Source: Pseudomonas endophytica | GTDB lineage: Bacteria > Pseudomonadota > Gammaproteobacteria > Pseudomonadales > Pseudomonadaceae | Length of the DNA: 64,000 nt | Assembly (NCBI RefSeq): GCF_001411475.1 | Contig: NZ_LLWH01000112.1 | Location: forward strand, 62,001-126,000 | Direction of reading: 5' to 3' | Shown: positions 45,215 to 57,401 of the stretch, piece after piece | Layout: every line of letters starts with the position of its first letter | Numbering within the stretch: the first letter of the stretch is position 1 | Program-made: the position numbers and the translations under genes | The notes under the pieces: model-generated | What the model saw: the letters and a program-made list of their open reading frames with translations, nothing else | The model's database searches: none | What the model was told of the DNA's origin: nothing

Positions 45215-45370
45215 AGGTGGCTACCTTTTACTGTGAATGCGAGTAGGCGTTGTCGTGATGCTAATTCAGCGTCGCGCCATTTACGCCGTGCATTAACAGT
45301 CTGTATGACCATTCATAAGCAAAATAAAACTCACCAGGCTGTCTTATTTCTAATAGCAAGAGCCCGCACC

Positions 45371-46324
45371 ATGAATCTGAGCAAGGTCGACCTCAATCTG
45401 TTTATCGTCTTCGACGCCATTTACACCGAAGCCAATCTGACCCGCGCCGGACAAATTATCGGCATTACACAGCCTGCGGTCTCCAACGCGCTGGCCCGTT
45501 TGCGTGAAACCTTCAACGACCCGTTATTTGTGCGCACGGCTCAGGGCATGGTGCCTACGCCGATGGCGCAAAACATCATCAGCCCGGTTCGCAGCGCCTT
45601 GGCCTTATTGCGCGTATCGGTGCAAGAAAGCCGCACGTTTAATCCGTTACAAGCGAATAAGACGTTTCGTATCAGCATGACCGACCTGAGCGAGGCGGTT
45701 ATTTTGCCGCCGCTGTTTCAGCGCCTGCGTCGACAGGCACCGGCGGTCGTGATTGAAAGCTTTTTGGCCCACCGCCGTGAGACAACCAGCGACCTAGCAG
45801 CAGGACGTTTAGATTTCACGATTGATGCACCGCTAAATGCTGATCTACAAGTGCGCCACATCAAGCTGATGGAAGACCGTTTTGTGTGCGCCATGCGCCA
45901 AGGCCATCCCTTGGCTAACAAGAGCAGCATCAACCTCGATGAGTATTTGGCGCTGACCCATGTACACATTTCGACCCGCCGCAACGGGCTGGGCCAAGTG
46001 GATTTGACGCTGGGTAAAATCGGTCTGCAACGCAAAATCACACTGCGCTCGCAGCATTACCTGATGGCCTCGAATGTTTTGCAGCAAACCGACATGGTCA
46101 TGACCGTGCCAGAGCGTTTTGCTCGGCGCCACGGTTTACATTTTGTAGCGCTGCCTATCAGCGAGTTACCGAATGTGGAAACCCATTTGTACTGGCACGA
46201 AAGCACCGAGCAAGACCCAGCTAATCGCTGGATGCGCGAGCAATTGATAGAGGTGTGCCAGCAGCAAGTGGCGCTGGAGAAAAAGGCCGAGACACAGCGC
46301 TTGCTTGACGTAAACGTCAACTAA
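45371..46324 (+). CDS. LysR-family transcriptional regulator (NodD-like subgroup)
   Basis: A 317-residue LysR-type regulator starting MNLSKVDLNLFIVFDAIYTE, typical of the NodD-like/LeuO group. A winged helix-turn-helix (ANLTRAGQIIGITQPAVSNALARLRE) is followed by a type 2 periplasmic-binding-protein domain. The frame begins earlier at 45233, but homology starts at the ATG at 45371. It is divergent from the acyl-CoA dehydrogenase and immediately upstream of liuR. Its final codons contain the operator-like palindrome at 46305-46320. Confidence 0.88.
   Translation: MNLSKVDLNLFIVFDAIYTEANLTRAGQIIGITQPAVSNALARLRETFNDPLFVRTAQGMVPTPMAQNIISPVRSALALLRVSVQESRTFNPLQANKTFRISMTDLSEAVILPPLFQRLRRQAPAVVIESFLAHRRETTSDLAAGRLDFTIDAPLNADLQVRHIKLMEDRFVCAMRQGHPLANKSSINLDEYLALTHVHISTRRNGLGQVDLTLGKIGLQRKITLRSQHYLMASNVLQQTDMVMTVPERFARRHGLHFVALPISELPNVETHLYWHESTEQDPANRWMREQLIEVCQQQVALEKKAETQRLLDVNVN
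46305..46320. promoter_or_regulatory. Candidate LiuR operator at the 3' end of the LysR gene
   Basis: TTGACGTAAACGTCAA has perfect 7-bp arms around AA, and lies 37 bp before the liuR start, inside the last codons of the preceding gene. Nearly the same 16-mer occurs twice in the divergent acyl-CoA synthetase/liuA promoter. The shared motif and location support LiuR autoregulation. Confidence 0.65.
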
Positions 46325-46356: not shown

Positions 46357-46761
46357 ATGCCCATGAGCAGCCAGACGTACAGCATTTCCGATCTTGCCCG
46401 CGAACTTGATATCACCCCCCGCGCCATTCGTTTTTATGAAGAGCAAGGCATGCTTGCTCCCGAACGGCGGGGACAGGAGCGGGTGTATTGTGCGCGGGAT
46501 AAAGTCAGCTTGAAGCTGATCTTACGAGGTAAACGCATCGGTTTTTCGCTGGCTGAATGCCGTGAGCTGATTGAGCTTTACGATCCAAGCAGCGGCAATC
46601 AGAAACAGTTGAACAGCATGCTGGCTAAAATAACCGAGCGCCGCGAACAACTGGAACAACAGCTTTTGGATATTCAGCAAATGCAACTTGAGCTGGATAC
46701 CGCTGAAGAGCGCTGTATTCAAGCGCTTGAGCACACAATAAAAAATCAGACAGCCCTCTAA
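46357..46761 (+). CDS. liuR: MerR-family regulator of branched-chain/leucine catabolism, LiuR
   Basis: A 134-residue MerR-type repressor. The winged helix-turn-helix reads YSISDLARELDITPRAIRFYEEQGML and a coiled-coil follows (~85-115). There is no metal-binding cysteine cluster. LiuR regulates the liu operon (leucine and isovalerate degradation) in proteobacteria. It precedes liuE by 90 bp and probably shares its transcript. Two near-equivalent ATGs exist at 46357 and 46363. The palindrome at 46305-46320 would allow autoregulation. Confidence 0.88.
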   Translation: MPMSSQTYSISDLARELDITPRAIRFYEEQGMLAPERRGQERVYCARDKVSLKLILRGKRIGFSLAECRELIELYDPSSGNQKQLNSMLAKITERREQLEQQLLDIQQMQLELDTAEERCIQALEHTIKNQTAL

Positions 46762-46851: not shown

Positions 46852-47748
46852 ATGACATTCCCCACCCATGTACGCCTGATTGAAGTCGGCCCGCGCGACG
46901 GTTTGCAAAATGAAGCCCAGCCCATCAGCGTGGCCGATAAGGTGCAGTTGGTTAATGCCCTGACAGACGCCGGATTGGGTTATATCGAAGTGGGAAGTTT
47001 CGTCTCACCAAAGTGGGTGCCGCAAATGGCCGGTTCGGCTGAAGTCTTTGCCCAGATCAAGCACAAGCCGGGCGTTGTCTATGGGGCACTGGCGCCGAAT
47101 ATGCGTGGTTTTGAGGACGCCGTCGCCGCTGGAGTAAAAGAGGTTGCCGTGTTCGCGGCCGCGTCGCAAGCGTTTTCACAGCGCAATATTAATTGCTCGA
47201 TCAGTGAAAGCCTGGAGCGGTTTGTGCCCATCATTGAGGCCGCCAAACAACATGGCATCAGCGTGCGCGGTTATGTTTCTTGCGTACTGGGTTGCCCGTA
47301 TGAAGGCCAAGTGTCTGCACAACAAGTCGCCGCTGTGGCCAAAGAGCTATACGCCATGGGCTGTTACGAAGTGTCACTGGGTGACACCATCGGCACCGGC
47401 ACCCCAACCGCAACCCGCACGATGTTTGAGGCCGTAGGGGCGTTTATCCCACGCGAAAAACTCGCCGGGCACTTTCATGACACCTACGGACAGGCACTGG
47501 TCAACATATACGCCAGTTTGCTCGAAGGTATAAACGTCTTCGACAGCTCGGTTGCGGGCTTGGGCGGCTGCCCGTATGCAAAAGGCGCCAGCGGTAACGT
47601 TGCGACTGAAGACGTGCTGTACATGCTCAACGGTATGGGCATTGAGACGGGGGTCGACATGGACAAACTGCTACTGGCCGGCGAGCACATCTGCAACGTG
47701 CTGGGACGTGTTACCGGGTCACGGGTGGCGAAGGCTCGTGAGGGCTAA
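46852..47748 (+). CDS. liuE: Hydroxymethylglutaryl-CoA lyase
   Basis: A 298-residue TIM-barrel lyase (also named mvaB) that splits HMG-CoA into acetoacetate and acetyl-CoA, the last step of leucine degradation. Motifs: VGPRDGLQNE with catalytic Arg-Asp, GSFVSPKWVPQM, VRGYVSCVLGCPYEG, HFHDTYGQAL with metal-binding histidines, and the signature VAGLGGCPYAKGASGNVATED with the catalytic cysteine. AGGTGA lies 6 nt before the ATG. It is in the same direction as liuR and separated from liuABCD by a sRNA and an acyl-CoA synthetase. Confidence 0.95.
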   Translation: MTFPTHVRLIEVGPRDGLQNEAQPISVADKVQLVNALTDAGLGYIEVGSFVSPKWVPQMAGSAEVFAQIKHKPGVVYGALAPNMRGFEDAVAAGVKEVAVFAAASQAFSQRNINCSISESLERFVPIIEAAKQHGISVRGYVSCVLGCPYEGQVSAQQVAAVAKELYAMGCYEVSLGDTIGTGTPTATRTMFEAVGAFIPREKLAGHFHDTYGQALVNIYASLLEGINVFDSSVAGLGGCPYAKGASGNVATEDVLYMLNGMGIETGVDMDKLLLAGEHICNVLGRVTGSRVAKAREG

Positions 47749-47800
47749 AAAGTGTGGCTTTGTGTTACCGCACCCTCACCCAAACGAGTAACACGGAAAC

Positions 47801-47829
47801 AAACCGGCCCTTGTCCAGGCCGGTTTTTT
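47801..47829 (+). terminator. Rho-independent terminator after liuE
   Basis: AAACCGGCC / GGCCGGTTT form a 9-bp perfect stem with 8-nt loop followed by a run of T's, 52 nt after the liuE stop. It insulates the sRNA promoter that follows. Confidence 0.88.
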
Positions 47830-47875
47830 AATACCTTAAATTTCAAGTCATTGATTTTAAAGGGTTTTATAAAGT

Positions 47876-47891
47876 TGGCACGGCTCCTGCT
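47876..47891 (+). promoter_or_regulatory. Sigma-54 promoter of the CrcY-like sRNA
   Basis: TGGCAC then CTGCT place GG (47877-47878) and GC (47889-47890) exactly 10 nt apart, the -24/-12 pattern of RpoN promoters. In P. putida CrcY and CrcZ are transcribed from RpoN promoters activated by CbrB. The start site should be near 47902. Confidence 0.75.
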
Positions 47892-47901
47892 ATCTCTATG
47901 G

Positions 47902-48290
47902 CATAACAAGAATAAAAACCGCAGCAACATAATAAGAACAATACGAAACGACTCTGACATAACAAAAACAACACGGCAGAGACGCAGCTAACAGATTTTT
48001 TTGGAGAAGGTTTACTTTTCCGGGGAGCTTAAGAGCCACCTCGCAACCGGGCAGAGAACAATAAAACTACCCTCAGGTAGCACCCGTTCAGGTTGGATCA
48101 CAGGTTTGATAGCCAGTGATAAAAGTGGATCAGCGCTCAAAAAAATACGTTTGCTCTTGATCCCGAATGGGGATCGCCAAAAACGCAGCAAAGGGTGAGT
48201 TCCAAAAACAACAATAAACCGCCCTTCAATAATAAAAAAAGAGCACGCAACGACACGTTAAAGGGGAGCTTAGGCTCCCCTTTGTGCTTT
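47902..48290 (+). ncRNA. crcY: Small RNA CrcY (CrcZ-family Hfq/Crc decoy)
   Basis: A transcript of about 390 nt runs from a sigma-54 promoter to a strong hairpin at 48260-48283. It contains many A-rich CA/AAnAAnAA motifs that bind Hfq with Crc: ACAAGAATAAAAA, ACATAATAAGAACAAT, ACATAACAAAAACAACA, GAACAATAAAA, AAAAACAACAATAAA and CAATAATAAAAAAAG. Genomic position also matches: in P. putida crcY lies directly downstream of the HMG-CoA lyase gene. The RNA titrates the Hfq-Crc complex and so relieves carbon catabolite repression. The exact 5' and 3' ends are estimates. A 65-codon frame inside it is not considered a gene. Confidence 0.88.
48260..48283 (+). terminator. Terminator hairpin of the CrcY-like sRNA
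   Basis: AAAGGGGAGC / GCTCCCCTTT, a perfect 10-bp stem with 4-nt loop TTAG, followed by TGTGCTTTCT rich in T. Confidence 0.82.
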
Positions 48291-48304
48291 CTGCATTTCC
48301 CTGT

Positions 48305-48384
48305 GTAGGAGCGAACTTGTTCGCGATCTTATGACCTTCAAAAGCATAAGATCGCAGCCATCGTACCTCGGCAGTTCCTACAGG
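48305..48384. repeat. REP element pair downstream of crcY
   Basis: GTAGGAGCGAACTTGTTCGC starts the left unit and an inverted, diverged unit ends in GCAGTTCCTACAGG, with the stem AAGATCGC / GCGATCTT between. It sits between crcY and the convergent acyl-CoA synthetase. The unit differs from the xthA-linked REP family. Confidence 0.75.
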
Positions 48385-48386
48385 AC

Positions 48387-50069
48387 CTACACGTTGCGAA
48401 TCTCCAGAATACTGATTTCGCGCATTTTGAATTTTTGGATCTTGCCCGTCACGGTCATCGGAAACACCTCAACAAACTTGAAGTGGCGAGGCGTTTTGAA
48501 GTGGGCGATCCGCGACTTGCACCAGGTTTGCAGCTCAAGTTCGTTGGCCGTATGCCCTGGATGAAACTTGATCCACGCCACAATTTCTTCGCCGTATTTC
48601 TCATCAGGAATACCAATCACCTGCACATCGGCTACCGCAGGGTGAGTGAAAAAGAACTCTTCCAGCTCACGTGGGTAAATGTTCTCTCCGCCACGGATGA
48701 TCATGTCCTTGTTACGCCCGACAATGCGCACATACCCCTGTTCATTCATTTCGGCCAAGTCACCCGTGTGCATCCAACCTTCATTGTCGATGGCTTCAAG
48801 GGTCGCCTGCGGGTTGTTCCAATAGCCCAACATCACACTGTAACCACGGGTGCACAACTCTCCGATCTCACCTCGAGCAACGACATTACCTTCGGCGTCG
48901 ATCACCTTGTTTTCAAGGTGTGGCTGGGTACGCCCAATGGTCGTAACACGCAACTCCAGATCATCATCAGGCCCGGTCTGCATAGACACCGGGCTGGTTT
49001 CGGTCATGCCATACGCGATTTGCACCTCGCGCATGTGCATCTCACTGATGACGCGGCGCATCACTTCTATCGGGCAAGTTGCGCCAGCCATGATCCCGGT
49101 ACGTAGGCTCGATAAGTCAAAATCGGCACGCTGCGGATGGTCGAGTAAGGCAATAAACATAGTCGGCACCCCGTATAACCCGGTGGCCCGCTCCTCAGCG
49201 ATAGCTTGCAGAGTGTGGGTCGGGTCAAAGGCCTCACTCGGGTAAATCATGGTGGTGCCATGGGTCACACAACCCAAGTTACCCATCACCATGCCAAAGC
49301 AGTGATACAACGGCACCGGAATCACCAGTCGGTCTGCGGACGTCAGCCCCAGACTCTCGCCTACCATGTAGCCGTTATTAAGGATGTTGCGGTGACTGAG
49401 GGTCGCGCCCTTGGGGAATCCGGTAGTACCCGAGGTGTATTGAATGTTCACCGGCTCGTCGAGCTGCAAACTGGCCTGCCGCGCATACAGGTCTTGTGCC
49501 TTAACGCCTTGGGCTAATGTGGCCAACTGCGGCCAAGGCAAGAAACCCGCCGGGGGCTGAGCGTCGAGACTGATCACGCCGCGCAAATCTTCGAAACACT
49601 GACTCTCAAGCTGCCCAACCGGATGCTCGCCCAACTCCGGGAGCAACGTCTGAAGCATGGCGTGGTAGTTCGAGGTTTTGAACGCACTCGCACTGACGAT
49701 CCATTGGCACGCCGATTGTTTGAGCACGTACTTCAACTCTGACAAGCGGTATGCCGGATTAATATTGACCAAGATCACGCCAATTTTCGCGCTGGCAAAT
49801 TGGCAGATAAACCACTCGGCACAGTTAGGCGCCCATACGCCCAAACGATCGCCCTTTTGCATGCCCAGCGCCAGCATCGCTCTGGCATGCACATCCACGG
49901 CCTGAGCCAACTGAGTCCAGTTGTAACGCTGATGTTGATGACGCACCACCAGCGCCTCACCTTTGGGGTAACGGGCAGTGGTTTGATCAAACGCCTGACC
50001 GATGGTCATCGCCAGCAACGGCTTATCTTGCGCGCCCTGGCTGTAACTGGGAACAGATTGCGGCTTCAT
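48387..50069 (-). CDS. AMP-binding acyl-CoA synthetase
   Basis: A 560-residue adenylate-forming enzyme. P-loop [16 protein letters not shown], the A5 motif [11 protein letters not shown]7 [17 protein letters not shown]8 [16 protein letters not shown], and the catalytic lysine in [13 protein letters not shown] at the end. It activates a carboxylic acid to its CoA thioester. Location beside, and divergent from, liuABCD with shared LiuR-type operators suggests a short or branched-chain acid such as isovalerate or a prenyl acid (inference). AAGGAG stands 5 nt before the ATG at 50069; the frame is open to 50276 but without homology. Confidence 0.9.
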
Positions 50070-50160
50070 GACAACTCCTTTTGTGATTGTTTTGGGAGTA
50101 CGAGTAATGCGCTCACCCGCGCGTTCTCGCTGTACAGAGTCGCAGTTACTCTGAACCAAG

Positions 50161-50176
50161 TTGACGTTAACGTAAA
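50161..50176. promoter_or_regulatory. Candidate LiuR operator 1 in the synthetase-liuA promoter
   Basis: TTGACGTTAACGTAAA contains the palindrome ACGTTAACGT and matches 14 of 16 positions of the site before liuR. It is 92 bp from the synthetase start codon. Confidence 0.6.
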
Positions 50177-50202
50177 GGTCGTTGACAGCTTTAAGCGCCA
50201 AG

Positions 50203-50219
50203 CTTACGTTAACGTAAAG
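50203..50219. promoter_or_regulatory. Candidate LiuR operator 2 in the synthetase-liuA promoter
   Basis: The perfect 14-bp palindrome TTACGTTAACGTAA (50204-50217) lies about 57 bp before the liuA start. It is centred 42 bp, four helical turns, from operator 1, as expected for cooperative or bidirectional control. Confidence 0.6.
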
Positions 50220-50274
50220 CTTATCCATGGCGATGCTGTTAACGCCCCTACAAGAACAACGACCAAGGTGCCCC

Positions 50275-51438
50275 ATGAGCTACCCGACTTTAAACTTCGC
50301 GCTAGGCGAAACCATCAACATGCTGCGCGACCAAGTGCAGTCTTTCGTAGCTGCCGAGCTGGCCCCACGCGCGGCACAAATCGACAAAGACAACCTGTTT
50401 CCGGCTGACATGTGGCGCAAATTTGGTGACATGGGGCTGCTCGGGATTACCGTATCTGAAGAGTACGGTGGTGCTGGCCTCAGCTACTTGGCCCACGTGG
50501 TTGCCATGGAAGAGATCAGCCGCGGCTCTGCCTCGGTAGCCCTCTCGTACGGCGCACATTCAAACCTGTGCGTGAACCAGATCAACCGGAACGGTAGCCA
50601 TGCACAAAAACTTAAATACCTGCCCAAGCTAATCAGCGGCGAGCACATTGGTGCCTTGGCCATGAGCGAGCCAAACGCTGGTTCAGACGTGGTGTCAATG
50701 AAATTGCGTGCCGACAAGCGCGGTGAACATTTCGTGCTCAATGGCAGCAAAACCTGGATCACCAACGGCCCTGACGCCAACACGTATGTGATTTACGCCA
50801 AGACCGACCTAGAAAAAGGCCCACACGGTATCAGCGCGTTTATTGTCGAGCGCGACTGGAAAGGCTTCAGCCGCAGCACCCATTTCGACAAGCTAGGCAT
50901 GCGCGGCTCTAACACCTGCGAGTTGTTTTTTGACGACGTTGAAGTTCCGCAAGAAAACTTACTAGGCCCCCTCAACGCAGGGGTAAAAGTATTAATGAGC
51001 GGCCTCGACTACGAACGCGTCGTTCTCTCGGGCGGCCCGACCGGGATCATGCAGGCATGCATGGATCTGGTGGTGCCGTATATCCATGACCGCAAACAGT
51101 TTGGCCAGAGCATTGGCGAATTCCAGCTAATCCAAGGCAAGGTTGCGGATATGTACACCCAGCTCAACGCTAGCCGCGCCTATCTGTATGCGGTTGCCGC
51201 AGCCTGCGAGCGCGGCGAAACCACACGTAAAGACGCCGCTGGGGTGATCTTGTATAGCGCTGAACGCGCCACCCAAATGGCTCTCGACGCCATTCAGATT
51301 CTGGGCGGTAACGGCTACATCAATGAGTTCCCCGCCGGGCGTCTGCTGCGTGACGCCAAACTGTATGAAATCGGTGCGGGCACCAGCGAGATCCGTCGCA
51401 TGCTGATTGGTCGCGAACTCTTTAATGAGACGAAATGA
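50275..51438 (+). CDS. liuA: Isovaleryl-CoA dehydrogenase
   Basis: A 387-residue FAD-dependent dehydrogenase converting isovaleryl-CoA to 3-methylcrotonyl-CoA. [14 protein letters not shown] and TWITNGPDA bind substrate and FAD. The catalytic glutamate sits in [12 protein letters not shown], the position used by isovaleryl-CoA dehydrogenases (E254 in human IVD), unlike the C-terminal Glu of most other acyl-CoA dehydrogenases. AAGGTG precedes the ATG at 50275. First gene of liuABCD. Confidence 0.95.
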
Positions 51439-57251: not shown

Positions 57252-57280
57252 TTGACTTGCAAATGATAATGATTACTATT
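57252..57280 (+). promoter_or_regulatory. Sigma-70 promoter with overlapping Fur box for the PrrF-like sRNA
   Basis: TTGACT-N16-TACTAT forms the promoter. The Fur box GCAAATGATAATGATTACT (57259-57277) matches 14 of 19 consensus positions and covers the spacer and -10, so Fur-iron would block polymerase directly. Confidence 0.8.
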
Positions 57281-57285
57281 GCAGG

Positions 57286-57400
57286 CAGCTGGTCGCGAGA
57301 TCAGCCGATCATTCAAAGGACCTTAGGTCGGTCTTTCGAATAATCTCCTCATCAGGCTAATCACGGTTATTTGACCCGGCTTATTGCCGGGTCTTTTTTT
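57286..57400 (+). ncRNA. prrF: Iron-responsive small RNA, PrrF family
   Basis: A transcript of about 115 nt with the PrrF core: CTGGTCGCGAGATCAGCCG at the 5' part, then AGGTCGGTCTTTCG and ATAATCTCCTCATCAGGCTA, the seed region that pairs with target mRNAs, and a final terminator. PrrF RNAs are functional counterparts of RyhB: under low iron they repress iron-rich proteins such as SodB and TCA enzymes, sparing iron. The Fur-boxed promoter fits. Only one copy is here; P. aeruginosa has two in tandem, while other pseudomonads place them apart. Ends are estimated. Confidence 0.88.
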
Positions 57401-57401
57401 T
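57373..57401 (+). terminator. Terminator of the PrrF-like sRNA
   Basis: GACCCGGC / GCCGGGTC (8 bp, 5-nt loop) followed by eight T's. Confidence 0.92.

Follow-up and report, generated by a model that had tools for sequence, protein, structure and literature searches.

A crcY locus of Pseudomonas endophytica and candidate CrcZ-type decoy RNAs in the wider Pseudomonadales

Results

The window, a 64,000-nucleotide stretch of Pseudomonas endophytica contig NZ_LLWH01000112.1 (assembly GCF_001411475.1, positions 62,001 to 126,000), contains a crcY gene between the HMG-CoA lyase gene hmgL (mvaB; 46852..47748, +; NF004283, 488 bits, cut-off 246) and a convergent acyl-CoA ligase gene at 48387..50276, which lies 3' of crcY. 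The initial annotation had read this gap, just downstream of the lyase ORF, as a CrcY-like Hfq/Crc decoy RNA with a sigma-54 promoter, A-rich motifs and a terminator, and had proposed an Rfam covariance search; as a description of the locus this is confirmed. When all Rfam families were searched against the window, the CrcZ family (RF01675) matched 47903-48308 over its full length (model 1-398) with 304 bits, against a gathering threshold of 95, and an E value of 3.2e-84. From this match and the tree described below, the RNA occupies 47903..48290 (+), about 390 nt, with its start at approximately 47903; position 47876 belongs to the promoter.

The RNA contains six A-rich Hfq/Crc-type runs, obtained by merging AANAANAA matches, on the plus strand (47905-47918, 47931-47941, 47961-47971, 48057-48064, 48204-48217 and 48228-48238), in agreement with the earlier count of at least six. 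Dinucleotide shuffles of 47903-48290 average 1.24 runs and 0 of 2000 reach six, and 388-nt stretches taken from both strands of the window at a step of 97 have five at most (0/1312 with six). Across the 165 family RNAs of the genus survey below, the number is 5–7. The terminator hairpin also stands, at 48259..48284 (+) with 11 pairs. The default terminator scan gives three terminator-like sites overall against 3.3 in shuffles, and this lack of excess means that support for the hairpin comes from its conservation in the Rfam alignment.

Between crcY and the ligase gene, a stretch at 48306-48385 (GTAGGAGCGAACTTGTTCGCGATC...) resembles a Pseudomonas REP element. Beyond the leucine cluster, on its downstream side, Rfam places a PrrF small RNA at 57252-57401 (152 bits, the window's single match of that kind). 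A plasmid origin of the stretch was considered and dropped, a near-mode search giving no plasmid match.

The RF01675 family is carried by all 199 genomes of the genus. Eighty Pseudomonas genomes yielded 167 matches, of which 165 were classified by neighboring genes after two fragments in G082 (contig C16) had been dropped: 79 lie after cbrB, 54 after hmgL (in 52 of the 80 genomes, the other 28 having no copy there) and 32 elsewhere. Among the copies elsewhere, that of G170 is followed by pcnB and is a crcZ, cbrB not being found in its stretch. At locus L133 (G086:C9:79362-80411) a tandem pair of crcY copies follows hmgL, each with a sigma-54 promoter. At L197 (G146), L199 (G161) and L185 (G149), family members stand right after a LysR gene and not after hmgL; this LysR gene is related to the one at 45233-46324 of the window.

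The promoter of the window crcY (TGGCACGGCTCCTGCT, 47876..47891, +) has GG at 47877-47878 and GC at 47889-47890, the clean GG-N10-GC sigma-54 element that had been proposed, and such an element is present at the corresponding place in all 54 crcY loci examined. Upstream of it, and absent from the initial annotation, are two putative CbrB-type subsites, F1 (TGTTAC, 47763..47768, +) and GTAACA (47788..47793, +), separated by a 25-bp step. An upstream TGTTAC occurs in 54/54 crcY loci and GTAAC[AG] in 53/54. Both hexamers belong to the kinds of CbrB subsite that have been analyzed in P. putida, where F1 carries the most weight at crcY (PMC6296734). The window GTAACA, centered at about −112, occupies the place that R' has at P. 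putida crcY; since substitution of R' was without effect on expression there (PMC6296734), the role of the window GTAACA is to be viewed with caution.

The step from TGTTAC to the GTAACA-type subsite falls into two classes among 53 crcY loci (the downstream tandem copy of G086, at 79362, was left out of this count and of the loose terminator count below), being 24–25 bp in 19 loci and 33–36 bp in 34, with nothing between. The classes differ by approximately one helical turn, which fits the proposed placement of the CbrB subsites along a single side of the helix (PMC6296734). An extra TGTTAC is found at 47709-47714, near the 3' end of hmgL, and one is also present 193–194 nt 5' of the RNA in G070, G116, G132, G196, and G198.

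The ORF preceding hmgL (46357..46761, +) encodes a MerR-family regulator, as shown by the Pfam domains MerR_1 and MerR-DNA-bind, and is probably liuR; all NCBIfam MerR models remain below their cut-offs on this ORF, and the name rests on its position and on the report of the LiuR homolog PP3539 in P. putida (PMC6292655). A putative LiuR-like palindrome (TTGACGTAAACGTCAA) with no mismatch to the pattern TTNACGTNNACGTNAA precedes this gene at 46305..46320, and two more lie between the ligase gene and ivd, at 50161-50176 (no mismatch) and 50203-50218 (one mismatch). The pattern is our own, drawn from this cluster and the leader of a relative, and for that reason its eight matches against 1.84 expected are no independent test. 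No LiuR-like box on this pattern is present in the crcY gap (47749-48386), and control of crcY in cis by LiuR was rejected on that ground.

The same gap contains a further feature missing from the initial annotation: a terminator-like hairpin at 47801-47826 with a T run (47801..47829, +), formed by a perfect 9-pair stem of −14.7 kcal/mol and positioned between hmgL and the crcY promoter. As the default promoter and terminator scan did not list this hairpin and gave no excess over shuffles, strict and loose terminator rules of our own were used. Under the strict rule, 6 of 53 loci have a terminator separating hmgL from the promoter, and these are exactly the window copy and its five near relatives in the tree; over all 54 loci it finds a seventh, inside the tandem crcY copy of G086. 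The loose rule, which asks for a T run and a folding energy of −6 kcal/mol or better, finds 14/53, the other eight having imperfect stems, some built from the CbrB sites themselves. A hairpin at the same place is frequent at crcZ loci (strict 30/79, loose 60/79). This hairpin lies between cbrB and the crcZ promoter, and GTAACG sits in its loop in most crcZ loci and in nearly all of the hairpins listed, e.g., at L204 of the window genome.

In the species group of the window, the hairpin probably reduces the transcription that runs on from liuR-hmgL into crcY. How far it would insulate crcY is uncertain, because crcZ often has a similar hairpin and yet read-through from cbrB into crcZ has been reported (PMC8871633, PMC6292655).

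These features bear on a proposed cis link, in which transcription from liuR-hmgL runs into crcY and the decoy is made whenever the leucine genes are on. A link of this kind is already in print: the retrieved text of PMC6292655 states the connection of crcY with mvaB and LiuR directly, describing in P. putida a PP3539-mvaB-crcY co-transcript together with processed CrcY, whereas the retrieved text of PMC12533007 yielded no statement on location. It is also well founded that P. putida crcY follows the lyase gene (PMC6292655) under CbrAB, as a direct CbrB target (PMC6296734). Against cis coupling at the present locus, for which the P. putida co-transcript and the placement after hmgL in 52/80 genomes would speak, stand the perfect-stem terminator, the gap free of LiuR-like boxes, the 28/80 genomes with no copy after hmgL, and the location of crcY elsewhere in Azotobacter vinelandii (PMC6292655, in the text retrieved), and we regard it as improbable. 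Of the initial interpretation, the CrcY identity, sigma-54 control and decoy reading are thus supported by Rfam, promoter, A-rich runs and tree, while the cis link through LiuR-controlled neighbors is not, the gap lacking a LiuR-like box and the hairpin separating hmgL from the promoter.

A link in trans is plausible. Hfq-Crc represses through A-rich motifs such as AAGAACAA, and a titrating RNA acts in trans. The ivd (liuA) leader contains AAGAACAA at 50252..50259 (+), 16–23 nt before the ATG at 50275, as a candidate Hfq-Crc target. With this motif, a gap without a LiuR box, and the P. aeruginosa liu pathway described as under Crc/Hfq control in a 2022 review (PMC8871633, in part), an action of CrcY on the leucine genes in trans appears likelier than one in cis.

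The window genome has one other RF01675 match, C24:57075-57469, lying between a cbrB-type response regulator gene, itself preceded by a histidine kinase gene, and pcnB; since these flanks match the published order cbrA-cbrB-crcZ (PMC8871633, in part), this copy is crcZ. In a tree of all 165 rows (quick search with SH-aLRT support, no bootstrap), the rows are split by a single branch, supported at 99% SH-aLRT on each side, into 81 (the copies after hmgL plus 27 of the 32 others) and 84 (the cbrB copies). The window RNA falls among the CrcY rows and forms a six-member clade (99% SH-aLRT) with G106, G116, G132, G196, and G198. As it follows the HMG-CoA lyase gene and groups with CrcY, the window RNA is CrcY by place and, on the sequence tree, by descent. 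A second or recently copied crcZ, as membership of the same Rfam family might suggest, is very unlikely given this split and the separate crcZ already present after cbrB. The reading that the gap is a mere A-rich spacer, encoding no RNA and with motifs that arose by chance, has nothing beyond the composition of the gap in its favor, is effectively refuted by the Rfam E value, runs counter to the shuffles and to conservation through the genus, and has a negligible probability.

The closest published counterpart is CrcY of P. putida KT2440 (PP3540b), which likewise follows mvaB/hmgL and a LiuR-type regulator gene and shares the sigma-54 promoter, CbrB subsites, and Rfam family, in the sources as retrieved; the window locus for its part has a 25-bp TGTTAC-GTAACA spacing and a terminator-like hairpin after hmgL. 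CrcZ, both at C24:57075-57469 and in P. aeruginosa and P. putida, is alike in family, promoter type and A-rich runs and in many genomes has a terminator-like hairpin upstream, but lies between cbrB and pcnB and on a separate branch of the tree. CrcX of P. syringae is a third CbrB-controlled family member (PMC8871633, in part); the window genome has only two, and third copies in some relatives fall on the CrcY side.

The remaining components of the circuit were sought in the window genome. Genes for Hfq and RpoN were found, and pcnB beside crcZ was identified by NCBIfam. The CbrB-type protein has receiver and sigma-54 domains and the CbrA-type protein kinase domains, the piece of CbrA searched giving no transporter domain. 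Models for CbrA and CbrB are absent from NCBIfam, and the highest-scoring NtrC model stays under its cut-off on CbrB; these two names are putative and follow the gene order. NCBIfam assigns the Crc candidate to exodeoxyribonuclease III; we take it to be Crc, a protein that belongs to that superfamily.

Membership in the RNA family, the sequences of the promoter and subsites, the number of motifs, CrcY orthology and the presence of CbrA-, CbrB-, Crc-, Hfq-, and RpoN-type genes are established here by sequence comparison. Transcription, Hfq-Crc binding and relief of repression would follow by analogy with published Pseudomonas work. On that basis the locus is almost certainly a crcY gene whose CbrB/RpoN-driven decoy RNA titrates Hfq-Crc in trans, as a partner of crcZ. 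Under a shortage of good carbon sources, CbrA-CbrB would respond, and CbrB at TGTTAC/GTAACA (47763-47793) would activate RpoN polymerase at the −24/−12 promoter. The A-rich runs of the resulting RNA of about 390 nt would bind Hfq together with Crc and draw the pair off catabolic mRNAs, which would thereby be freed, perhaps including that of the adjoining ivd. CrcY would act in trans alongside crcZ, and the read-through from liuR-hmgL that also feeds crcY in P. putida is probably weakened here by the terminator.

The spread of the decoy beyond the Pseudomonas family (f1 in our coding of families) was surveyed in 194 genomes of the order, 186 of them outside f1. RF01675 matches at E ≤ 0.001 occur in 42/194 genomes (above gathering in 10/194); outside f1 the figures are 35/186 and 3/186, all three in f2, and the decoy candidates of the other non-f1 genomes remain below the gathering threshold. 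By their anatomy the non-f1 candidates, most of them putative RF01675 members, would work like CrcZ. Where the surroundings of 23 non-f1 matches were read, there is a CbrB homolog upstream in 19, PcnB downstream in all 23 and, by our rule, a promoter in 22; the upstream stretches show TGTTAC and GTAACA. In f8 the matches sit before pcnB and cbrB is located elsewhere. Homologs of the Crc candidate with 34–53% identity are present in 23/23 tested genomes with non-f1 decoy matches, and some may be misnamed, because identity falls to 34% and exonuclease III paralogs reach 25–31%.

A gapped DNA pattern derived from the non-f1 RNAs and run over a named genome collection retrieved 47 loci, 45 titled Marinobacter and two, from metagenome bins, titled Nocardioides and Halomonas. 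CbrB accompanies 45 of these loci, CbrA 39, PcnB 44 and a promoter 46, several of the misses being stretches that end nearby.

For a test independent of Rfam, the order was searched with the CbrB of the window genome at a cut-off of 1e-150, which gave a match in 141/194 genomes and none in 53/194. Outside f1, 132 of 133 CbrB genomes were used (G370, with a partial match, was dropped), and pcnB is next to cbrB on the same strand in 103; the other 29 have no pcnB in the stretch read, some of them cut by contig ends. A gap between cbrB and pcnB was scored as holding a candidate decoy if it has a sigma-54 site and, in the 400 nt after that site, three or more A-rich runs. This was found in 82/103 genomes from 26 coded families, the latter being the better count because genomes within one family are not independent, compared with 0/103 on the reverse strand, 2/2060 mononucleotide shuffles and 15/2060 dinucleotide shuffles. 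Among the 21 failures, 14 have a promoter but only two A-rich runs and seven have no sigma-54 site by our rule, including f42, with a gap of 95 nt, and f43, in which A-rich runs are present.

A perfect CbrB subsite, which was not part of the scoring, lies within 220 nt upstream in 82/82 (GTAACA in 81, TGTTAC in 62), against 19/82 in the same length downstream and 258/1640 in shuffles of the upstream stretch. CbrA homologs immediately precede CbrB in all 22 loci whose stretch includes that flank. When twenty gap loci (19 of the 82 and L400, which is outside the 82 as its pcnB is not adjacent) were searched against Rfam, CrcZ matched three times, each time below gathering, and nothing else reached E ≤ 0.01. 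A terminator-like hairpin follows the third run in 51/82, which is weak evidence because 22/82 have one on the reverse strand too. The short decoys include one of about 110 nt from promoter to hairpin end (G387, f23), and AGACCTGG[AG]TGGGGA occurs at the hairpin near their end in 22/132 genomes of seven families (f11, f13, f23, f29, f31, f40, and f47).

Discussion

The window locus is an ordinary crcY, an expected member of a known RNA family, since CrcY of P. putida has already been published along with its location and its control by CbrB; CrcY, CrcZ, CrcX and CbrB control have been described for Pseudomonas and Azotobacter in the literature as retrieved. It adds one more CrcY to a studied family and offers a natural comparison, as some relatives have a terminator separating the leucine unit from the decoy and others have none. 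The weak part of the initial annotation is its cis link.

The main interest seems to lie in the spread of the circuit through the order, beyond the Pseudomonas family. Very probably, CbrA-CbrB with a CrcZ-type decoy is old and widespread in Pseudomonadales (GTDB), including Marinobacter, with most decoys too diverged for Rfam and some only about 110 nt long with three A-rich modules. The candidates (L097, L098, L213-L232, and L315-L434, nearly all below the Rfam threshold) are recognized by their place between an upstream cbrB and a downstream pcnB, together with CbrB subsites, a sigma-54 promoter, and A-rich runs. The 2022 review describes CbrAB as unique to Pseudomonadaceae and as known only in Pseudomonas and Azotobacter (PMC8871633, in part). 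A literature search found no paper joining CrcZ with Marinobacter or with Oceanospirillales; it covered few subscription papers, so that an earlier report is possible. In the literature as retrieved, CrcZ and Halomonas do co-occur at the level of co-mention, and CbrA, CbrB, and Marinobacter are mentioned together without being tied to one another.

If the order-wide circuit is real, it would shift the origin of CbrB-driven Hfq-Crc titration from one family to much of the order, and would point to catabolite control of carbon use in Marinobacter and similar marine genera, in which the review, in the text retrieved, sees no CbrAB (PMC8871633). The minimum working decoy might then be readable from so large and divergent a set.

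Two arrangements within the cbrB-pcnB gaps may be noted. L349 (G265, f47) has two promoter-plus-A-rich units in tandem between cbrB and pcnB, and the gaps of f38 (e.g., L336, L354, L356, and L361) contain up to eight copies of TGTTAC and up to 12 A-rich runs.
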